Below are positions 4,687 to 12,852 of a DNA stretch of 32,787 bases, piece by piece. The translations under genes and the position numbers were made by a program. Below the pieces are notes generated by a model. It was not told the origin of the DNA and ran no database searches. It saw only the letters and a list, made by a program, of their open reading frames with translations. The stretch's first letter is position 1. The number at the start of each line of letters is the position of its first letter. The stretch is from Lachnospiraceae bacterium (GTDB taxonomy: Bacteria; Bacillota; Clostridia; Lachnospirales; Lachnospiraceae): contig JAJBTQ010000013.1 in assembly GCA_020860755.1 (NCBI GenBank), positions 6,702 to 39,488 of the forward strand, given 5' to 3'.

Positions 4687-4781
4687 AGGCAGCCGCCTCC
4701 TTCCCTGAAGAGTTGTTTTATGTAGAATATGATTATAGCACGCGGCGCCTGAAAATCCTATCAGAATATCTCTGAAACTCC

Positions 4782-4844
4782 TTGTGTCCAGCGAATAAAA
4801 ATGATAAAATGGTTTAAACTAAAATAAAGAAAATCGTTTCAACC
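4782..4844 (+). promoter_or_regulatory. Promoter and operator-like inverted repeat of the TetR gene
   Basis: TTGTGT (4782-4787), 17 bases and TAAAAT (4805-4810) form a promoter. Just after the -10 box, GGTTTAAAC (4811-4819) and GTTTCAACC (4836-4844) form a 9-base inverted repeat with one mismatch and a 16-base spacer. This is a natural place for TetR autorepression, which is an inference. Confidence 0.5.
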
Positions 4845-4856
4845 GGAGAAGATCAT

Positions 4857-5533
4857 ATGCCTCAGCCGATCAAAGAAGAGGATCTGAAAAACATCACAAA
4901 AAAAGTATATGCACTCTATGCGAAGCACGGGTTTGACGGGATCTCCATGGATGAAGTGTGTGCTCAGACGAACATCAGCAAAGCGACGCTCTACCGCTAC
5001 TTTACGAGCAAGGAAGACATTGTGAGGAGTATGGTGGATGTCCTGATCTCTCACCTTAATACCCTGCAGTTTGACGCCATAGACGGCATTGGGAACGTTT
5101 TGGATGGATTTCAGAAGGTTTATATAAAATCCACTATTATCGCGGCGCTCACCGGATCAGAGTTTCTCACGGCTCTGGAAAAAAGCTCCCGGATACGTAT
5201 GAAACGTACCATACGGCGTTCCTTGCCATGCAGGAGCGTTCCGCCGCATTTTTCCGGCAGACAGTAGAGAAGGGTTACTGCAGGCAGATGCCGTTTCCCC
5301 TTGTCAGCAAACAGTTCCAGAACATGCTTCCCCTGGTCATAAATATGGATTTCCTGGAGAGAAATCAGATGACTTTAACAGAGGCGCTTAAGGACTATTA
5401 CCGGATGTTCCTCTATCAGATCCTCCGGCCGGAGTACCAGGGCATGGCAGACGCGGAGGAGACCTATGACTTTGTCGGCGAACTGGCCGATGCCCTGCAG
5501 AGCGACTGTTACATTGACAGCATCCGCCGCTAA
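4857..5533 (+). pseudogene. TetR/AcrR-family regulator interrupted by a frameshift
   Basis: The first part (from ATG 4857, with GGAGAA 6 bases upstream) carries a clear TetR helix-turn-helix (MDEVCAQTNISKATLYRYFT, residues 31-50). The sensing domain begins, then the frame turns into a nonsense tail ending at 5267. The correct continuation lies in the -1 frame: reading resumes as PDTYETYHTAFLAMQERSAAFF from about 5189 and runs to 5533. Joined, they give a normal-length regulator of about 225 residues. The shift lies near AAAAAAGCTCCC (5179-5190), where one extra A or C would restore the frame. The heptamer AAAAAAG is present, but its phase is wrong for classical -1 slippage, so a one-base deletion or sequencing error is more likely. 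The gene ends 98 bases before the sirtuin operon, which it may control. Confidence 0.75.
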
Positions 5534-5631
5534 AGACAGGCAGACTATATTTTAAAAATACAAAAATCGGACTGCTGTAGCAAGGAACTATAAATACTAC
5601 CACTTTAATAATACGAGGAAAACAAGAGGCA

Positions 5632-6387
5632 ATGGATAAACAGATAGAAACACTTAAGGAATATGTAGATGCGAGCAGCAGCGCTGTGGCGATCACGGGA
5701 GCGGGGATCTCCTTTTCAGCCGGAGGGCTTAGCTTTGACCACACAGACCAGGAAGGAATGCGGGAGCTTATGATCCTGGGCTCCGAGGAGGCGCTTCGCA
5801 ATGAACCGGAACGGTATTATGCAGCACTGGACAAAGCATTTTTGCATTCCATGCTTGTGATCGGTCCCAGCCCGGCACACCGGGCGCTGGCGCAGCTGGA
5901 GTCCGAGGGAAAGCTCCGCGGCATCATCACGACAAACGTGGACTGTCTGCACACGATAGCCGGCTCGGTCAACGTGCTGGAGATCCAGGGAAGCCTGCAG
6001 GTCAACAAATGCGTTGACTGCGGAAAACATTATGACGATTACATGATCTGGTCTCACGGTACGGTGCCGGAGTGCCCGGAATGCGGAGGAAAGATATGGA
6101 CGTTTCCTTTTTACAGCGGCATTGGCTTAAATGACCCGGTTGTAAAACAAGCGAGAAGGCTGATTTCAAAGGCGGACTTGATCCTCATCATCGGAGCCAA
6201 CGGGAACTATGGCAACGCATATTGGCCGTTCCGGAACCGGAGGGCCACGATCGTGCAGATCAACCCCGGGAGTACGGGATTTGACCGGGCAGCGGATTTA
6301 AACATCCGCCGGGACGCGGATTCGGTATTTGCCGAGCTGATGGAAGCGAGGGAAGCGGAAAGGAACTCCGGATCGCAGGAATCTTAA
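5632..6387 (+). CDS. Class M-like sirtuin 1 (probable protein ADP-ribosyltransferase)
   Basis: The 251-residue protein has the sirtuin Rossmann core: GAGIS (23-27) for NAD binding, TTNVD (100-104) with the conserved Asn and Asp, and a four-Cys zinc site (C127, C130, C148, C151). A late IIGANGNYG loop and VQINPGS strand complete the core. The catalytic His of deacetylase sirtuins (HGS) is Gln119 (EIQGS). This is the feature of SirTM enzymes, which transfer ADP-ribose from NAD to proteins. The usual P-x-F-R stretch after GAGIS is also missing. It is the first gene of a seven-gene run and is followed after 20 bases by the hydrolase gene. GAGGAA lies about 11 bases before the start. Its target is unknown, since no GcvH-L gene is present. 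Confidence 0.85.
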   Translation: MDKQIETLKEYVDASSSAVAITGAGISFSAGGLSFDHTDQEGMRELMILGSEEALRNEPERYYAALDKAFLHSMLVIGPSPAHRALAQLESEGKLRGIITTNVDCLHTIAGSVNVLEIQGSLQVNKCVDCGKHYDDYMIWSHGTVPECPECGGKIWTFPFYSGIGLNDPVVKQARRLISKADLILIIGANGNYGNAYWPFRNRRATIVQINPGSTGFDRAADLNIRRDADSVFAELMEAREAERNSGSQES

Positions 6388-6407
6388 GGGGTCTTATAAG
6401 GAAGCGA

Positions 6408-7142
6408 ATGGGAAAGAAGAGGAGACTTAAAATGATCATTGGGCTGACCATCCTGGCAGTGTTTATCGTATTCATTCTGGTCGTTTTGCTCTATCACAAC
6501 AATGCCTATCCGGAGTCGCAGGAGATTGCCGATGAGATGGAGATGGAGGGCAGGGATTACTGGTTTTACGGTGACACCGGCGTCGGATTTATCATCTTTA
6601 CCGGAGCGAAAGTGGATGAGCCGGGCTATGCCTACATTGCCGGGCTGCTCCACGAGGAGGGCCACACGGTGGTAATCCCGAGTCAGATCTTTACGATGAG
6701 CGCGCTCGGAACGAATCACGCGATCGAGATCATGAAGAAACACACGGAGGTCAATAAATGGATTCTGGTCGGGCATTCCCTCGGCGGGGTGCAGGTCAGC
6801 CGGGTCGCCGAGCAGGCGCCGGAATATCTGACAGGTATCGTATATCTCGCGAGCTATGCTTCTTCAGACCTGACCGGTCTTGATTTTCCCGCTCTTCGGA
6901 TCACGGCGGACCACGACGGGGTCATGAACAACGAGCGGATGGAGAACTATGCGAACAATCTGCCTGCCGGATCCGAGACCGTCGAACTGGAGGGAGCCAA
7001 TCACAGGGGATTCGGCGGATATCTGTCCCGGTTCAGCCGGGAGGAGGATGTTGCGCTGACCTGGCAGGAACAGAATACGATCTGTGTGAATCTGATCCTC
7101 GATTTTTACGCGGATCAGATCAGGAAAGCCGAAAACCAATGA
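6408..7142 (+). CDS. Membrane-anchored alpha/beta hydrolase
   Basis: An N-terminal basic stretch (GKKRRLK) and one hydrophobic segment (about residues 9-28) predict a signal anchor. The catalytic domain is therefore likely outside the membrane. The nucleophile elbow is GHSLGG (Ser124). Asp168 or Asp170 (TADHDG) and His199 (GANHRG) complete the triad. The 244-residue length and the order of motifs fit the abhydrolase_5 type, a broad group of esterases and lipases. The substrate cannot be told. ATG 6432 is an alternative start with a better ribosome site (AGAGGAG, 7 bases upstream). Starting at 6408 keeps the positive residues before the anchor. It lies 20 bases after sirtuin 1 and 45 bases before the DUF2156 gene, as part of the same transcript. 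Confidence 0.8.
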   Translation: MGKKRRLKMIIGLTILAVFIVFILVVLLYHNNAYPESQEIADEMEMEGRDYWFYGDTGVGFIIFTGAKVDEPGYAYIAGLLHEEGHTVVIPSQIFTMSALGTNHAIEIMKKHTEVNKWILVGHSLGGVQVSRVAEQAPEYLTGIVYLASYASSDLTGLDFPALRITADHDGVMNNERMENYANNLPAGSETVELEGANHRGFGGYLSRFSREEDVALTWQEQNTICVNLILDFYADQIRKAENQ

Positions 7143-7150
7143 GCGCAAGA

Positions 7151-7168
7151 CAGCCTTTTTAAAGGCTG
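7151..7168 (+). promoter_or_regulatory. Hairpin inside the sirtuin operon
   Basis: CAGCCTTT (7151-7158) and AAAGGCTG (7161-7168) form a perfect 8-base stem between the hydrolase stop and the DUF2156 ribosome site. No T-run follows on the plus strand, so it is more likely an mRNA-stability or processing element than a terminator. Confidence 0.45.
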
Positions 7169-7187
7169 CCTTACACAGGAGGGCGAG

Positions 7188-8282
7188 ATGGCGACAGTAA
7201 GACAAAAGGACAAAGACCGGGCCGAGCAGATGGTCCGAAGCCTGGGGATGGATCCCCTGCAGCTTTTGTCCCTGGACAACCTGGATAATGGGTATTTTTT
7301 CGGACCGGATGATAGCGGTGTGATCTTTTATACGCTTGCGGGCAAGCGGGCGCTCTCCCTGGGTGATCCTGTCTGCAGGGAAGAGGATTTAGACCGGTTG
7401 ATCCGGGCCTATATAGACTTTTGTGAACGCAGGGAATACCGCTGCGTCTTTAACTCGGTAGAGCAATCGGTCGCTGAAGCTCTTAAATCCGTAGGATTTC
7501 TTGTTGCGAAATATGGCGAGGAGGGGATCCTTTTCTTGTCAGAGTACGATCTCTCCGGAGGGAAAAAAGGCGCGCTTCGCCGGAACGTGGCAAAGTTGGA
7601 TAAATGGGGCTGTACCTGTGAGGAATATGATCCGGAACAGCAGCGCAATCCGGATCTGGAACGTGAGATCGGCGAATTGCAGAAGGAATGGCTGGAGGAT
7701 AAAAAGCTGAGTCTGACCTATTCGGTCGGAGATCTGCAGTTTGCTCACCCCTGCGGCAGACGCTATTTTGTCACGCGTGATAAAGAGGGAGATCTGCTGA
7801 CTGTAGTCTCTTTTCTTCCTTACCGGCAGGAAAAGGGCTGGTGCATCGATGTCATGTACCGGAAGCCGGGCGGGCTGACCGGCGCCATGGAGCATACGAT
7901 CATCTCCGCTGCATGGAAACTAAAGGAGGAAGGGGCCGAGGAGCTCAGTTTAAATATCGCGCCGCTGGCCGGGATCGACCCGTCCTCTCCGGATGCCAAC
8001 CGTGAGGAAAAGCTGATGCATGCGGCTTTTGATTCGCTGGATTACGGCTACGATTTTAAAGGGCTTTATCGCTTCAAGGAAAAATTTTCGCCGTCGGAGT
8101 GGAAACCCCGGTTTTTGGTTTTCGATCACCGGATCTCCATGGTCCAGCTGGCAAGGTCCATCGCAGATGTAAAAGGAGCGTCCGACCCGGAACTTTGGAT
8201 GAAGTATGGAAAATTTTTCCTTTCCTATACACTGACACCACGAAGATATCAGAATGAACAAAAAAAGGAGGATACAATATGA
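7188..8282 (+). CDS. Soluble DUF2156 (LPG_synthase_C-like) protein
   Basis: The 364 residues resemble the cytoplasmic catalytic half of MprF, the GNAT-type domain that passes amino acids from aminoacyl-tRNA to phosphatidylglycerol. The DUF2156 pattern is visible in YFFGPDDSGVIFYTLAGKRALSLGDPVC, quoted here only in part as GKRALSLGDPVC, and in an RRNVAKL stretch. A late LSLNIAPLAG strand and GLYRFKEKFSPSEWKPRF also match. There is no membrane flippase domain, so it is a stand-alone soluble form as found in many Clostridia. Its donor and acceptor are unknown. The ribosome site AGGAGGG lies 7-10 bases before ATG 7188. Its stop overlaps the start of the flavodoxin gene (ATGA), indicating translational coupling. 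Confidence 0.8.
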   Translation: MATVRQKDKDRAEQMVRSLGMDPLQLLSLDNLDNGYFFGPDDSGVIFYTLAGKRALSLGDPVCREEDLDRLIRAYIDFCERREYRCVFNSVEQSVAEALKSVGFLVAKYGEEGILFLSEYDLSGGKKGALRRNVAKLDKWGCTCEEYDPEQQRNPDLEREIGELQKEWLEDKKLSLTYSVGDLQFAHPCGRRYFVTRDKEGDLLTVVSFLPYRQEKGWCIDVMYRKPGGLTGAMEHTIISAAWKLKEEGAEELSLNIAPLAGIDPSSPDANREEKLMHAAFDSLDYGYDFKGLYRFKEKFSPSEWKPRFLVFDHRISMVQLARSIADVKGASDPELWMKYGKFFLSYTLTPRRYQNEQKKEDTI

Positions 8283-8728
8283 AAACACTGATCATCTATT
8301 ATTCCAGAGCAGGCCATACGGCCGCAGTGGCAAAAAAAATTCAGGCCATTGTGGGAGGCGATTTGTTTGAGATCAAAGGGACTAAGAACTACGGGAGCTA
8401 TGCCCGCGCTATCATGATCGCCCGCAGGGAGTTTTCCAGCGGAGAAATGCTGGAATTCGTGGGAGATGTCGACGATTTTGATTCGTATGACCGCATTTTG
8501 GTCGGATTTCCGGTCTGGTACGGCAAGGCTCCGCAGTTAGTAATCTCGTTTTTGGTTTCCCACAATTTCAAGGGGAAGGATGTCTATCCGTTTTGCACAA
8601 GCGGCTCAAGCGGCCCTGAAGGAGCACAGCAGCAGCTGCAGAACGCTTGCGGCAAAGCGACTGTGCATCCGGGGATCCGCTTCAAAGAGGTGAATAAGGC
8701 AGACGTTGAAGCATGGCTTGAAGGCTGA
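8279..8728 (+). CDS. Flavodoxin-family protein
   Basis: The 149 residues begin MKTLIIYYSRAGHTAAVAKK, the phosphate-binding loop of flavodoxin folds (Y-S-x-x-G-x-T), which holds FMN. FPVWYGKAP supplies the loop that stacks on the flavin ring, and FCTSGSSGPEG matches the third loop typical of flavodoxin_4-like proteins. It is cytoplasmic and probably transfers electrons or reduces a small substrate. The gene overlaps the DUF2156 gene by 4 bases and precedes sirtuin 2 by 45 bases. Other SirTM loci carry flavin-linked oxidoreductases, so a redox partner here fits that theme. The link in this operon is an inference. Confidence 0.85.
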   Translation: MKTLIIYYSRAGHTAAVAKKIQAIVGGDLFEIKGTKNYGSYARAIMIARREFSSGEMLEFVGDVDDFDSYDRILVGFPVWYGKAPQLVISFLVSHNFKGKDVYPFCTSGSSGPEGAQQQLQNACGKATVHPGIRFKEVNKADVEAWLEG

Positions 8729-8773
8729 ATCTTAAAAACAATTGACAGATATGCAGCAGAAAGGTAAAAAACG

Positions 8774-9502
8774 ATGGACGAACAAATCACACAGTTAAAA
8801 GAATACATGGATCAAAGCAGTAATACGGTCGCGATCACCGGATCCGGCATCTCCTATCTTTACGGGATGAGCCGGTTAAAACAGATGTCCAATCGGATGG
8901 ATCTGATGCGGAAACTATCTCCGAAGTATGTGCAGAAGAATCCGGAGGATTTCTACAAGGTCATGAGAGAAGCTTTTTTGGACGCGACCTTTAAGCTGGG
9001 GCCGAGCCCGGTGCACAAACAGCTGGCCGAGTTTGAAAAGAGAGGAATGCTCTCAGGTATCGTCACGCAGAACTTTGACTGCCTGCATCAGGAAGCCGGT
9101 TCGACCAACGTGGTAGAGTTCCAGGGCAGCTTTGATGACAATATCTGCGTGGGGTGCGGGGCCCGTTATCACGACTATAAGGTCTGGGATGAGGGGAAGG
9201 CTCCGCGCTGTGAAAAGTGTGGTGCTCCGCTGATGCCGGCATCCTTTGACCGCAATTTCCCGGGCCATGACAGTGAATATAATGCGCGCATGAATCAGGC
9301 GGCCGATATGATCGCCGCGGCGGATCTCGCACTGATCATGGGAACGACAGGGTTCATGAGTGAAAACTATATGGCTAAGGTGACACCGAAGACCACTTTG
9401 GTGCAGATCAACCCGTCGCCGACCAGATTCGATTCTATGACGAAGCTGAATATCCGCCGGGATGCCGAAGAGGTATTTAACGAGATACTGAGCGCGGAAT
9501 AG
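8774..9502 (+). CDS. Class M-like sirtuin 2 (most diverged copy)
   Basis: The 242 residues show GSGIS (23-27) in place of GAGIS. TQNFD (98-102) keeps the canonical Gln that the other two copies lack. The zinc cysteines are C125, C128, C146 and C149, with a late QINPSP strand. Gln117 (EFQGS) again replaces the catalytic His. After the NAD loop the sequence (YLYGMSRLKQMSN) shares little with copies 1 and 3, and the GTTGF loop replaces GANG. These changes suggest a different acceptor or altered NAD use. A ribosome site (AGAAAGG) lies about 9 bases before ATG 8774. The gene precedes the macrodomain gene by 34 bases. Confidence 0.85.
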   Translation: MDEQITQLKEYMDQSSNTVAITGSGISYLYGMSRLKQMSNRMDLMRKLSPKYVQKNPEDFYKVMREAFLDATFKLGPSPVHKQLAEFEKRGMLSGIVTQNFDCLHQEAGSTNVVEFQGSFDDNICVGCGARYHDYKVWDEGKAPRCEKCGAPLMPASFDRNFPGHDSEYNARMNQAADMIAAADLALIMGTTGFMSENYMAKVTPKTTLVQINPSPTRFDSMTKLNIRRDAEEVFNEILSAE

Positions 9503-9536
9503 AGATCATTATTGCATACGGAATAAGGAGAATACT

Positions 9537-10502
9537 ATGCCGGATATGGAAAATATGAGCCCGGAAGAATTAAAGAAACTGATGGCCCAGATGCAGCAAA
9601 AAGAATACGAGGGTCTTACTCCCGAAGAGATTGAAGAGAAGAAAAAGGAGAAGGAGATGCGCAAGCGTAAAAACATAGCCCTTCTTGACGAGACCATAGA
9701 GCTCTGTCAAAAAGGGTGCTATGAGCGGGACGGGAAGACGGTTGAGATCGGATTGTCCGAAGAGGAGATGCGTGAGATCTGCGTGTTTCTCCCGGATGAG
9801 ATCGCGGCACTGCCTGCGAAAGCAGAATCAGAAGGGCAGCAAAAGGCAGCGTTTCGCTGTGAGAACAAGGATGCGCTGTCTCTTGCACAGGAGGATCGTG
9901 AGGATCCGTCTTACCAAAGCGGAAACAGTGGAGCCAACGTGCTCGTCTTAAATCTCGCCAGCGCTACCCGTCCGGGCGGGGCTTCTCGCGATGGCGCAAA
10001 CGGGCAGGAGGAAGACCTCTGCCGCAAGAGCACACTTCTTCTTTCCTTGGAAACGGAGGAAGCCAGGCGCTACTATGACTACAACAATGATCTGCACACA
10101 CGTCTCGGCTCCGACGGAGTCCTGATCTCACCCCATGTGGCTGTGATCCGGGATGCAAAGGGAGAGCTTTTAGCGCAGCCCTTTGAGATCTCCGTGATGT
10201 CCTGTTCCGCTCCGATGGTACGCCTTGGGCTGGAAGGGAAATCGGAGGAAGAGTACAAGGAGATGCTGCTTGGCCGGATTCGCGGGATGCTGCGCTGTGC
10301 CGGCAGTTTGGGTTATAAAAATCTGGTGCTCGGAGCATTCGGGTGCGGCGTGTTCGGAAATGATGCCGCGGTCGTCTCGGACGCATTTAAAAAAGCCCTG
10401 GACGGGACGGACGGATGCGGTTTTGAGCACGTGGATTTTGCGGTGCTGTGCACGGAAGGAAAAGAGTACAACTATCAGGAATTTTGTCGAAACTTTGGGT
10501 AA
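9537..10502 (+). CDS. PARG-type macrodomain protein (TIGR02452-like), probable ADP-ribose glycohydrolase
   Basis: The 321 residues begin with a charged helical lead (SPEELKKLMAQMQ). The PARG-type N-terminal region follows, with DETIELCQKGCYERDGK (about 51-67). In the macrodomain, NLASATRPGGAS (139-150) and GQEED (156-160) together resemble the bacterial PARG signature G-G-G-x(6-8)-Q-E-E; the third Gly is Ala. Two adjacent Glu (158-159) are the expected catalytic residues. GAFGCGVFGN (266-275) is the phosphate-binding loop. The predicted role is removal of ADP-ribose added by the flanking sirtuins. The ribosome site AAGGAG is well spaced. The gene lies between sirtuins 2 and 3, with only 6 bases before the latter. 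Other SirTM loci usually carry a zinc-containing or MacroD-like macrodomain. Confidence 0.85.
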   Translation: MPDMENMSPEELKKLMAQMQQKEYEGLTPEEIEEKKKEKEMRKRKNIALLDETIELCQKGCYERDGKTVEIGLSEEEMREICVFLPDEIAALPAKAESEGQQKAAFRCENKDALSLAQEDREDPSYQSGNSGANVLVLNLASATRPGGASRDGANGQEEDLCRKSTLLLSLETEEARRYYDYNNDLHTRLGSDGVLISPHVAVIRDAKGELLAQPFEISVMSCSAPMVRLGLEGKSEEEYKEMLLGRIRGMLRCAGSLGYKNLVLGAFGCGVFGNDAAVVSDAFKKALDGTDGCGFEHVDFAVLCTEGKEYNYQEFCRNFG

Positions 10503-10508
10503 TAATCT

Positions 10509-11213
10509 ATGAATGATGAACAGATCAAAGAACTTTATCAGGCTTTGGAGGACAGCAGTTTTACCGTCACGATCACCGGCGCAGGGATCTCTATCGCGGC
10601 CGGCGGCGTGACCTATTCGGGAATGCGTTCCCGCGGTGCCCGTCGGGGCATGAGGTCCGACGATCCGGAAGCTATGTACCAATATTTTTATCAGGCTTTT
10701 TTAAGCTCCATGTTTGAGCATGGTCCGACCTATGCGCACAAAGCGCTGGCCAGATTGGAAGAGATGGGGAAGATGCAGGGTATCATCACCACAAACGTAG
10801 ACTGCCTGCATACGATGGGAGGGTCGAAAAACGTGGCGGAGATCCAGGGCAGTTTCCAGACCAATGTCTGCACCGGCTGCGGAGCGTGGACTTACGGCTA
10901 TGAGATCTGGAATCACGGAAAGATGCCGACCTGTGAAAAGTGCGGGAGCACCCTGCTCCCCTACAACATTTACAGCCATGCCGGACTGCTGACATCTCAG
11001 CTTCAAAAGGCACAGAAGTGGATACAGCAGGCAGACCTCATCCTGATCATCGGGGCCAACGGAAGTTACACCCACATGTACTGGGATTACAAAAAACCGG
11101 ACGCCGGGATCATTCAGATCAACCCCGGGAGCACCTATTTTGACCGGGTGGCTGACTTAAATATCCGGGAAGAGTCAGACCCCGTATTTGAGGCATTGAT
11201 GAAAATGGAATAA
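10509..11213 (+). CDS. Class M-like sirtuin 3
   Basis: The 234 residues have GAGIS (24-28), TTNVD (94-98), zinc cysteines C121, C124, C142 and C145, and a late IIGANGSY loop with QINPGS. Gln113 (EIQGS) stands where deacetylases have His. It is closer to sirtuin 1 than to sirtuin 2: both share AGG-rich sequence after the NAD loop, the ITTNVDCLH segment and the GANG loop. The start follows the macrodomain stop by 6 bases and has almost no ribosome site, so it is probably translated by coupling to the macrodomain gene. This would tie this writer to the eraser in amount. It ends 4 bases before the convergent antiporter gene, with no terminator between. Confidence 0.85.
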   Translation: MNDEQIKELYQALEDSSFTVTITGAGISIAAGGVTYSGMRSRGARRGMRSDDPEAMYQYFYQAFLSSMFEHGPTYAHKALARLEEMGKMQGIITTNVDCLHTMGGSKNVAEIQGSFQTNVCTGCGAWTYGYEIWNHGKMPTCEKCGSTLLPYNIYSHAGLLTSQLQKAQKWIQQADLILIIGANGSYTHMYWDYKKPDAGIIQINPGSTYFDRVADLNIREESDPVFEALMKME

Positions 11214-11217
11214 TCCA

Positions 11218-12852
11218 TCAGGCGCTTTCTTCTGTGTGGATCCGGTCTTTTGCTGTCACTCTTCGTATGATAAACAGTGTCGCCAGCATCAGGGCAACCC
11301 CGATCGGCAGGCAGATGAACGCGTTTTTCACGAACCCTGCAATGATATAAGTCACAAAGCTGACACAGGCCACTGTGATGGCATAGGGCAGCTGGGTGGA
11401 GACATGGTTCACGTGACTGCACTGAGCTCCGGCGGAGGACATGATCGTCGTATCCGAGATCGGAGAGCAGTGATCGCCGCACACGGCACCTGCCATGCAG
11501 GCAGAGATGGCGAGGACCAGCATGGTCTCGTCTGTTCCCGCGAATACGGCGACAACGATCGGGATCAGGATGCCGAATGTTCCCCAGGAAGTGCCTGTGG
11601 AGAACGCGAGGAAGCAGCCCACCACGAAGATGATCGCCGGCAGGAAGTTGAACAGATTGCCGCTCGCCGAGCCCACGGCATTGGCCACAAATTCGGAGGC
11701 ACCAAGGCTCACGGTCATCGCCTTTAATGTCCAGGCGAGGATTAAAATGATCATGGGAGGGATCATCGTCTTGGCTCCCTCCGGGATACAGCTGCCGATC
11801 GATTCCCGAAGTGTGAGTACCTTTCGGGCCGCGTAAAAGAGAATCGTAATGATGAGGGCGAGGAATGTGCCGAGCATCAGGCCAAAGGCGGCTTCACTCT
11901 CAGAGAATGCCCGGATAAAGGGCACTCCCTCGAACAGACCTCCGGTGTATACGATGCCGAGGATACAGCAGCCGATCAGCACAAGGATCGGAACGAGCAG
12001 ATCGACCACGCCGCCTTTTTTGTCCCCCTCTTCCTCCTTATCGCCGTACGGCCGGTCCGCGGTCGTAAACAGATCTCCGGCCAGAGCATTTTTCTCATGC
12101 TTTCTCATCGGGCCGTAATCCATCTTAAACAGAGTGAGGACGATCAACATCGTGATCGTCAAAAGAGCATAATAATTGTATGGGATCGCCCGGATAAACA
12201 GAGAGAATCCATCCTCCCCCGGCACGAATCCGGTCACCGCGGCAGCCCAGGATGAGATTGGCGCGATGATGCAGATCGGGGCGGCTGTGGAGTCAATGAT
12301 GTAGGCCAGCTTTGCCCGGGAGATCTTGTGCTCGTCAGTCACCGGGCGCATGACACTTCCCACGGTCAGGCAGTTAAAGCCGTCATCGATAAAGATGAGC
12401 AGGCCGAGGCAGACCGTGGCGAACTGCGCACCCACGCGGGTCTTGATATGCTCTCCCGCCCACCGTCCGAACGCAGCCGAGCCTCCGGCCCTGGTCATGA
12501 GACACACCATGATCCCGAGCAGTGTCACAAAGACCAGGATCGCAATGTTATCTGCGTCCGTGAGGACTCCGACGACGCCTTCTTTAAAAATCTGGGGGAT
12601 GAGCAGATCCCAATGTCCGATCGAATAAAAGATACCGCCGATGACGATACCGATAAACAGAGAACTGTAGACTTCTTTTGTGATCAGCGCGAGTACGATG
12701 GCCACGATCGGCGGCACGAGCGCCCAAAACGACGCGTACATGGATGGAACATACTCTGCCCCCTCTTCCGCGGCAAATGCAGTTACACCGCTGCACGCAA
12801 TCAGCACAAGCGCGATCAATATTCCGGAAATAATTTTTTTCTTACTCTTCAT
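11218..12852 (-). CDS. NhaC-family Na+/H+ antiporter
   Basis: The 544-residue protein has about 12 hydrophobic segments and the NhaC domain order: an N-terminal LVPPIVAIVLAL segment, FIDDGFNCLTVGSVMRPV, STAAPICIIAPISSWAA, and FSTGTSWGTFGILIPI with CGDHCSPISDTTIMSS. The last two are family hallmarks for ion passage. Such carriers exchange sodium, or organic substrates in some branches (for example malate-lactate), for protons. The first 28 residues look like an uncleaved or cleaved signal (TAFAAEE), and this longer form is common in Clostridia. The start at 12852 follows GGGAGA. It points away from the zinc-ribbon gene at 13034. Confidence 0.88.
   Translation of the reverse strand: MKSKKKIISGILIALVLIACSGVTAFAAEEGAEYVPSMYASFWALVPPIVAIVLALITKEVYSSLFIGIVIGGIFYSIGHWDLLIPQIFKEGVVGVLTDADNIAILVFVTLLGIMVCLMTRAGGSAAFGRWAGEHIKTRVGAQFATVCLGLLIFIDDGFNCLTVGSVMRPVTDEHKISRAKLAYIIDSTAAPICIIAPISSWAAAVTGFVPGEDGFSLFIRAIPYNYYALLTITMLIVLTLFKMDYGPMRKHEKNALAGDLFTTADRPYGDKEEEGDKKGGVVDLLVPILVLIGCCILGIVYTGGLFEGVPFIRAFSESEAAFGLMLGTFLALIITILFYAARKVLTLRESIGSCIPEGAKTMIPPMIILILAWTLKAMTVSLGASEFVANAVGSASGNLFNFLPAIIFVVGCFLAFSTGTSWGTFGILIPIVVAVFAGTDETMLVLAISACMAGAVCGDHCSPISDTTIMSSAGAQCSHVNHVSTQLPYAITVACVSFVTYIIAGFVKNAFICLPIGVALMLATLFIIRRVTAKDRIHTEESA

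Follow-up and report, generated by a model that had tools for sequence, protein, structure and literature searches.

A recurring sirtuin–PARG gene cassette, apparently undescribed, in some clostridial bacteria

According to the available parts of PMC4518038, a His residue acts as the general base in other sirtuins, while in the class M enzymes (SirTM) a Gln takes its place, deacylase activity disappears, and a neighbouring gene encodes the lipoyl carrier protein that receives the ADP-ribose; in SpySirTM, this H-to-Q change accompanies ADP-ribose transfer with no appreciable deacylation. The same source gives a GVGx[NT]TP motif and a conserved Arg192 that contacts the Gln as features of the class, describes operons with a macrodomain eraser and flavin-type oxidoreductases, and names Lachnospiraceae among the carriers. 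In the portion of PMC11490716 at hand, SirTM is described as unique among sirtuin classes in having only transferase activity, with GcvH-L as its one known protein target. A related arrangement is present in a stretch of 32,787 nucleotides from a Lachnospiraceae bacterium (GenBank assembly GCA_020860755.1, contig JAJBTQ010000013.1; the whole stretch is called the window below), where three sirtuins (SirA, SirB and SirC) lie on one strand with a macrodomain protein of the poly(ADP-ribose) glycohydrolase (PARG) type. These genes form a cassette that recurs in some clostridial bacteria and is apparently undescribed; what appears to be new is this combination of putative writer and eraser. No description of it was found in literature searches, which mostly left subscription papers outside their scope, so that an earlier one is possible. 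The original prediction, that the gene set differs from the known SirTM loci and may be undescribed, agrees with these searches and with the loci in the available parts of the two papers.

The association of these sirtuins with PARG extends well beyond the window. The three window sirtuins and a fourth one of the same genome (L005; L numbers denote loci) served as queries in a collection that represents each species by one genome. From 272 candidates, the 79 further loci most similar to the window sirtuins were taken, a choice that over-samples the family; they carry 72 different titles, and 77 of the 79 are from Bacillota. Together with the window, this makes 80 loci, in which neighbours were counted as matches anywhere on the stretch and not just beside the sirtuins, with family profiles built from the 80 loci themselves; the reverse test of PARG given below is a less circular check. 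The PARG subfamily of the cassette is present in 56 of the 80 loci, 51 of which hold two to four ORFs (open reading frames) of more than 90 residues for QG sirtuins, named here after the Gln that replaces the catalytic His. Because the same subfamily is found in so many loci, a chance association of sirtuins and PARG is excluded.

Gene order is conserved as well. Across the 80 loci, SirB is followed by a C-type sirtuin in 38 adjacencies, a C-type sirtuin by a second one in 26 and by PARG in 47 (33 + 14), with paralogue types assigned by motif and not by tree, so that members of clades A and C may be lumped together under the non-B types. Upstream, flavodoxin precedes SirB 19 times and nitroreductase precedes flavodoxin 16 times. 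The original prediction took all seven genes of the operon as one system and proposed a co-occurrence search as a check. In the present search, sirtuins, PARG and flavodoxin (25 of 80 loci) recur in conserved order, but the alpha/beta hydrolase (6 of 80) and the DUF2156 protein, or LPG_synthase_C (4 of 80), are mostly missing; their genes, adjacent in that order four times, are occasional companions and not core members. Likewise, three writers with one eraser is a gene count that fits the window, but other loci carry from one to four QG-sirtuin ORFs.

The active site of these sirtuins is highly uniform. The family sample contains 171 relatives of 205–330 residues from the 79 loci, the window and L005, and residues at the catalytic and zinc positions were taken from the alignment, since pattern-based calls ('IG', 'TG', 'EG') proved unreliable. 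The catalytic His position holds Gln in 169 sequences, including all three of the window, and Glu in two; the HG form is found in none (0/171), while the CobB of the source genome has the His. Of the 171, 170 retain the four Cys of the zinc type, and the Asn of the nicotinamide adenine dinucleotide (NAD) site is present in all, as is the Asp that follows (50 clade B sequences and 121 others). For comparison, 30 Zn-Macro loci from the same bacterial family yielded 24 SirTM references of 240–340 residues, and 29 ordinary sirtuins were used (28 taken from genomes within the phylum, plus the CobB of the source genome). The residue after the NxD motif is Cys in 171/171 family members, His in 21/24 SirTM and Gly in 22/29 ordinary sirtuins, and the signature TxNxDC[LMI]H is seen in 169 of the family. 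A motif of the V-V-x-F-G-E/D type, which is taken here to be the acyl-lysine site, is found in 27 of the 29 ordinary sirtuins, in 0/24 SirTM and in 0/171 family members; the pattern was widened after a narrow first version had matched 3 of the 29 controls and, having been written from controls already seen, is fitted to them, while the family count is zero with either version.

In overall sequence and fold, the family is nearest to ordinary sirtuins. The three window sirtuins match SIR2 (Pfam) with 77–83 bits (cut-off 24), and this, the Sir2 fold of a SirB model and the four zinc-type Cys place them in the Sir2 superfamily. Among 50 listed structure matches, those closest to the SirB model (predicted local distance difference test score, pLDDT, 88.5) are Sir2Tm (best match) and archaeal Sir2, and a sequence search of solved structures also puts ordinary sirtuins nearest (best 60 of 77 and of 102). 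It could thus be argued that these are ordinary CobB-type NAD-dependent deacylases in which the H-to-Q change is neutral. Nevertheless, this seems highly improbable, as the replaced His is the general base of other sirtuins in the available text of PMC4518038, and the change affects 169 of 171 members. An ordinary-deacylase identity was rejected on the loss of the catalytic His and of the acyl-lysine motif, each 0/171. Another option is that the sirtuins are non-catalytic regulators that bind NAD or ADP-ribose, with PARG acting on ADP-ribosylation by another enzyme. With Gln in place of His, the general base is lost, and the paralogues may have divided functions; yet neither the Asn of the NAD site nor the Asp next to it varies, and the omega of the window sirtuins against a near relative, L038, is 0.04–0.08 (one pair), all of which makes inactive regulators very unlikely.

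The sirtuins had been called class M-like, and the shared Gln bears this out, but motifs and distance suggest that the QG sirtuins of the cassette are not SirTM. All 171 are closer to ordinary sirtuins by BLAST, with median scores of 112 bits against these and 38.5 bits against SirTM. The GVGx[NT]TP motif, searched for with a slightly wider pattern, occurs in 0/171 of the family and 20/24 of the SirTM references, and NLR in 1/171 and 14/24, respectively. At two columns where more than 90% of the 24 SirTM have Arg, the family has L, F, I or V in 170/171 at one and mostly W, M or L at the other; the alignment had no numbered SpySirTM row, so the column of Arg192 is inferred. In a tree of 132 rows (79 of the 171 family rows, near copies having been dropped; bootstrap not settled, 0.972), the family and SirTM each form a clade of their own (support 99/100 and 100/100, respectively), with the ordinary sirtuins between them as a paraphyletic group, one long branch of which (L163) meets the family. 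Within the family, this tree assigns SirB, SirA and SirC to a different clade each (support 99/99, 95/86 and 100/99), which suggests that they are old paralogues.

Nevertheless, the approximately unbiased (AU) test, made on 70 rows (28 of 171 family, 14 of 24 SirTM and 28 of 29 ordinary sequences) with the catalytic column omitted, does not reject a topology that joins both groups with Gln (p = 0.381), and this speaks against a separate class. One origin of the H-to-Q change and two would both be compatible with these sequences. A convergent origin of the Gln is not established, given this p value, the paraphyly of the ordinary group, the position of L163 and the unsettled bootstrap. Class M membership itself was rejected on motifs, scores and, with the reservation of the AU result, clade, and a common origin of the Gln is compatible with that.

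In three loci, an ORF for a C-terminal SirTM fragment lies directly 3′ of the cassette PARG (L083, 3339–3587; L086, 9743–9991; L213, 2324–2572), as might be left by the displacement or recombination of a SirTM locus. Such fragments, together with the shared Gln and the AU result, would suit the idea that the cassette sirtuin is a true SirTM that exchanged its Zn-Macro for PARG. Very little credence is given to it here, since the BLAST distances, the lack of GVGx[NT]TP, the two columns where SirTM have Arg and the family commonly does not, and the separate clades all oppose it.

The macrodomain protein, for its part, has the features of bacterial PARG. It matches PARG_cat_microb (PF10021) with 95.6 bits (cut-off 23.5) and TIGR02452 with 164 bits (cut-off 50), and its model (pLDDT 86.9) has the PARG fold, with TcPARG as the closest solved structure and 31–33% identity to TcPARG (3sih) and DrPARG (5zdb) over the model alignments. 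QEE is present at residues 157–159, the GAFGCG...ND loop is also kept, and the region alignable with TcPARG is preceded by an N-terminal stretch of about 47 residues, which the model shows as mostly helical. In the GGG-X(6-8)-QEE loop, QEE is retained, and 52 of 55 cassette PARGs, that of the window included, have another residue for the third Gly, so that PGGG becomes PGG[Q/R/H/A/K] (exceptions: L058, L051 and L040); among PARGs without a QG sirtuin nearby, the changed loop is found in 1 of 44. In DrPARG, the corresponding residues belong to the catalytic loop, which is poorly defined in the apo form, as far as the available parts of PMC6445106 describe it. Judging from sequence, the replacement may affect the enzyme.

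The reverse test began from PARG: 250 genomes of the bacterial family contain 49 PF10021 matches, spread over 39 genomes. The third Gly is absent in six, five of which adjoin a QG sirtuin (L184 is the sole one that does not), and present in 43, none of them beside a QG sirtuin (Fisher p 3e-6), on stretches that reach at most about 1.5 kb per side in 29 of the 49 cases; five of these were also viewed more widely, with no QG sirtuin seen. The test is not wholly independent of the first sample, as L182 appears to duplicate L115, and G130 (a genome, which supplies two of the five positives) appears to duplicate the genome of L113, and two of the 43 with GGG (L176 and L177) score as members of the cassette branch. 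In L034, which is the same gene as L176, the cassette-branch PARG is fused to a C-terminal ADP_ribosyl_GH (ARH) domain (Pfam), and L177 is like L034/L176 in length and score. A single chain of about 700 residues, which is also the length of L177, thus combines two folds of ADP-ribose hydrolases in L034/L176, and no sirtuin match is found on the L176 or L177 stretch.

The other genes near the cassette are in good part redox genes. A 176-residue nitroreductase matches 42 of the 80 loci and a second nitroreductase type 16, with an Rrf2 regulator in 27; ABC transporters are found in 28 loci and TetR in 17. Because the cassette repeats the logic of the SirTM operons with other parts, it is on balance probable that it is a redox-linked module for reversible ADP-ribosylation, found mainly in Clostridia and similar to SirTM/Zn-Macro but drawn from other families. 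The QG sirtuins would use NAD+ to put single ADP-ribose units, rather than poly(ADP-ribose), on one or more partner proteins, which are probably the flavin or redox proteins encoded alongside, that is, flavodoxin in the window and nitroreductase and flavodoxin in relatives. The PARG-type macrodomain with its altered catalytic loop would remove the mark. In relatives, the Rrf2 regulator, with one conserved Cys, probably sets expression, which would make the module responsive to stress from oxidants or electrophiles, perhaps with some division of labour among the paralogues.

A bolder version may be offered tentatively, as possible but doubtful. Here, the cassette would be a second sirtuin-based system of reversible ADP-ribosylation, assembled apart from SirTM/Zn-Macro, in which several dedicated and possibly heteromeric paralogues of a class defined by QG and TxNxDC[LMI]H act on redox carriers, and in which PARG, once a poly(ADP-ribose) glycohydrolase, became a mono-ADP-ribosyl hydrolase through its altered loop. 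In this version, the invariant Cys right behind the NxD motif could render the writers redox-sensitive.

Several observations weigh against the redox-linked module. Nitroreductase and Rrf2 do not adjoin the copy in the window, and the best equivalog of Rrf2 is HypR with 48 bits against a cut-off of 180, barely above RirA (NCBIfam, one protein). Eight inspected Rrf2 proteins (of 23 in the cluster) have one Cys in common, and three of them have one or two more elsewhere, with no shared set of three; redox sensing by this regulator is thus a guess. PARG enzymes can also act on RNA ADP-ribose in the parts of PMC11833690 that were available, so the target of the cassette may not be a protein. The cassette PARG is absent from the stretch in 24 of the 80 loci, some of which are on short contigs. 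When 12 of these 24 were traced to their genomes, it was found elsewhere in six and not found in the other six, and in five of the latter genomes a lone QG sirtuin stands next to ABC transporters. QG sirtuins of at least one branch of the family, therefore, apparently work without this eraser. Finally, a trio found downstream in relatives, composed of a stand-alone adenylation enzyme of the nonribosomal peptide synthetase type (TIGR01733, 354 bits; cut-off 317), a GNAT protein and an esterase, has no obvious place in redox signalling and suggests a metabolic role that the signalling model leaves unexplained.

The lone sirtuins beside ABC transporters, with no cassette PARG found in the genome, are those of L079, L085, L093, L100 and L103, which include Parablautia intestinalis and Acetatifactor muris. 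In eight loci (L044, L045, L048, L053, L074, L096, L105 and L112), a small cysteine-rich protein is encoded near the cassette, YcgN-like in the case of L096 (NCBIfam, below cut-off).

The trio bears directly on an alternative that centres on a small compound, aminoacyl or aromatic, which the sirtuins would ADP-ribosylate, or build or mask with the help of NAD. Tailoring would fall to the adenylation enzyme, GNAT, esterase, nitroreductase and DUF2156 protein, and unmasking to PARG. The adenylation enzyme is found in 19 of the 80 loci, GNAT in 17 and the esterase in 23, and the adenylation gene follows PARG in 14 adjacencies. In the source genome, contig C17 (L194, 4120–8424) carries in a row a PhlG-like protein (76 bits, cut-off 600), the fourth QG sirtuin, the esterase, the adenylation enzyme and GNAT. 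The gene set of the cassette is thus split over two loci in this genome, C17 being the second half, and the occurrence of nitroreductases and LPG_synthase_C near cassettes is also in line with small-molecule chemistry. Even so, this chemistry is considered unlikely: the adenylation enzyme occurs in just 19 of the 80 stretches, several conserved sirtuins with a dedicated PARG suit signalling better, and the recurrent neighbours that were run on Pfam or NCBIfam include no carrier or condensation domain, with no aimed search of the cassettes made.

A second alternative follows from the pairing of writer and eraser. The QG sirtuins could be ADP-ribosylating or NAD-consuming effectors of a toxin–antitoxin or defence system, with PARG as antidote in the manner of DarTG. 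The distribution of the cassette is patchy, with 4 of 250 family genomes carrying it by the PF10021 route, the window's own included, and bacterial PARGs can act as protection from a toxin that modifies RNA, according to the parts of PMC11833690 available. By contrast, no cassette PARG was found in 6 of the 12 searched genomes with a PARG-less QG locus, and metabolic and redox genes are the steady company of the cassette. PADLOC, run on the seven operon proteins, returned just matches of 28–31 residues and 17–21 bits to two models of the candidate system PDC-S65. An origin from mobile elements or phages also found no support when PARG was compared with plasmids and phages and SirB with phages and viral contigs, SirB not having been searched for in plasmids. 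Relatives of SirB were not found in viral contigs, the sirtuins in phage records are all below 60% identity to it (at most 37% among the 20 of 35 that were listed), and PARG relatives in viral contigs reach at most 38% (their loci were not inspected). The defence role that had been suggested for the window thus gained nothing from these searches, and a toxin or defence system is held to be quite unlikely.

In the window itself, the layout is as had been described (Table 1): seven ORFs, all on the + strand at 5632–11213, namely three sirtuins, one PARG-type macrodomain and three others, with gaps in gene order of 20, 45, −4, 45, 34 and 6 bases. The assignment of three paralogous sirtuins and a macrodomain with QEE was upheld by the Pfam and NCBIfam scores given above. 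All seven genes are under purifying selection, with omega values of 0.04–0.11 and a synonymous divergence (dS) of 0.37–0.55 against L038 (one pair). A scan for terminators over 4700–11500 gave nine matches on both strands, compared with 5.8 ± 2.7 in shuffled sequences. The lack of a visible terminator holds for the + strand, where the four matches are all intragenic; a near-palindromic hairpin at 7143–7176, in the gap between the hydrolase and LPG_synthase_C genes, is terminator-like on the minus strand only (+ strand folding z = −1.7). One cluster of neighbours (c12) was discarded as apparent antisense ORFs, judged by coordinates.

Table 1. Genes of the sirtuin–PARG operon in the window
Feature	Position	Strand	Basis and remarks
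sirA (QG sirtuin paralogue, clade A; TGAGIS, TTNVDCLH, EIQGS, four Zn-type Cys)	5632..6387	+	Pfam SIR2, alignment, tree
Alpha/beta hydrolase (Abhydrolase_5, 127 bits)	6408..7142	+	Pfam; occasional companion
LPG_synthase_C / DUF2156 protein (178 bits)	7188..8282	+	Pfam; occasional companion
Flavodoxin (Flavodoxin_4, 92 bits)	8279..8728	+	Pfam; recurs immediately 5′ of sirB
sirB (QG sirtuin paralogue, clade B; GISYLYG, TQNFDCLH, EFQGS)	8774..9502	+	Pfam SIR2, alignment, tree, model
PARG-type macrodomain (PF10021/TIGR02452), cassette subfamily, loop PGGASRDGANGQEED	9537..10502	+	Pfam/NCBIfam, model
sirC (QG sirtuin paralogue, clade C; TGAGIS, TTNVDCLH, EIQGS)	10509..11213	+	Pfam SIR2, alignment, tree

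Just upstream of the operon, a gene for a TetR-type regulator (4857–5533, +) looks broken, with the TetR_N part at 4857–5267 and an overlapping ORF in another frame at 5228–5533; a frame error, an assembly error and real decay are all possible. In the close relative L038 (2744–4423), about 1.7 kb separates the LPG_synthase_C and flavodoxin genes, which overlap by 4 bases in the window. The source genome assembly, of 1.72 Mb and 79% complete, has five SIR2 matches, that is, the CobB-like L001 with the catalytic His, the three of the window and L005 on C17. It has one PF10021 match, and its sole match to the ordinary macrodomain PF01661 is on another contig. GcvH was considered as a substrate and set aside, as none was found in this 79% complete genome.

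If the redox-linked module is real, it would be a second, more elaborate sirtuin-based solution beside SirTM, it would give a dedicated partner enzyme to at least one branch of bacterial PARGs, and its conserved neighbours would make a short list of candidate substrates. DarT/DarG also pairs an ADP-ribosyl writer with a macrodomain eraser, and the fold of DarT is not that of a sirtuin; the predicted writers of the cassette are several sirtuins and its eraser is of the PARG type. Ordinary Sir2 deacylases such as Sir2-Af1, Sir2Tm and CobB are nearest to the QG family in sequence and fold but differ in the catalytic His, in the acyl-lysine motif and in the residue after NxD, which is always Cys in the family. 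With bacterial PARGs such as TcPARG and DrPARG, the eraser shares the fold, QEE, the GAFGCG...ND loop and the identity given above, while it differs in the third Gly of the GGG loop, the helical N-terminal part and the sirtuin neighbours. The likeness to SirTM/Zn-Macro, as described in the available parts of PMC4518038 and PMC11490716, is in the design: both have a sirtuin with Gln for His in a tight operon with an ADP-ribosyl hydrolase of macrodomain fold, and extended SirTM operons also carry redox genes of the flavin type. The parts, however, are different. The sirtuins belong to another clade with other motifs and commonly number two to four paralogues instead of one, the eraser is of the PARG and not the zinc MacroD type, and neither GcvH-L nor LplA is among the seven genes of the operon; where the SirTM operons have GcvH-L, OYE and LLM, the cassette has flavodoxin and nitroreductase, with Rrf2 in its relatives.

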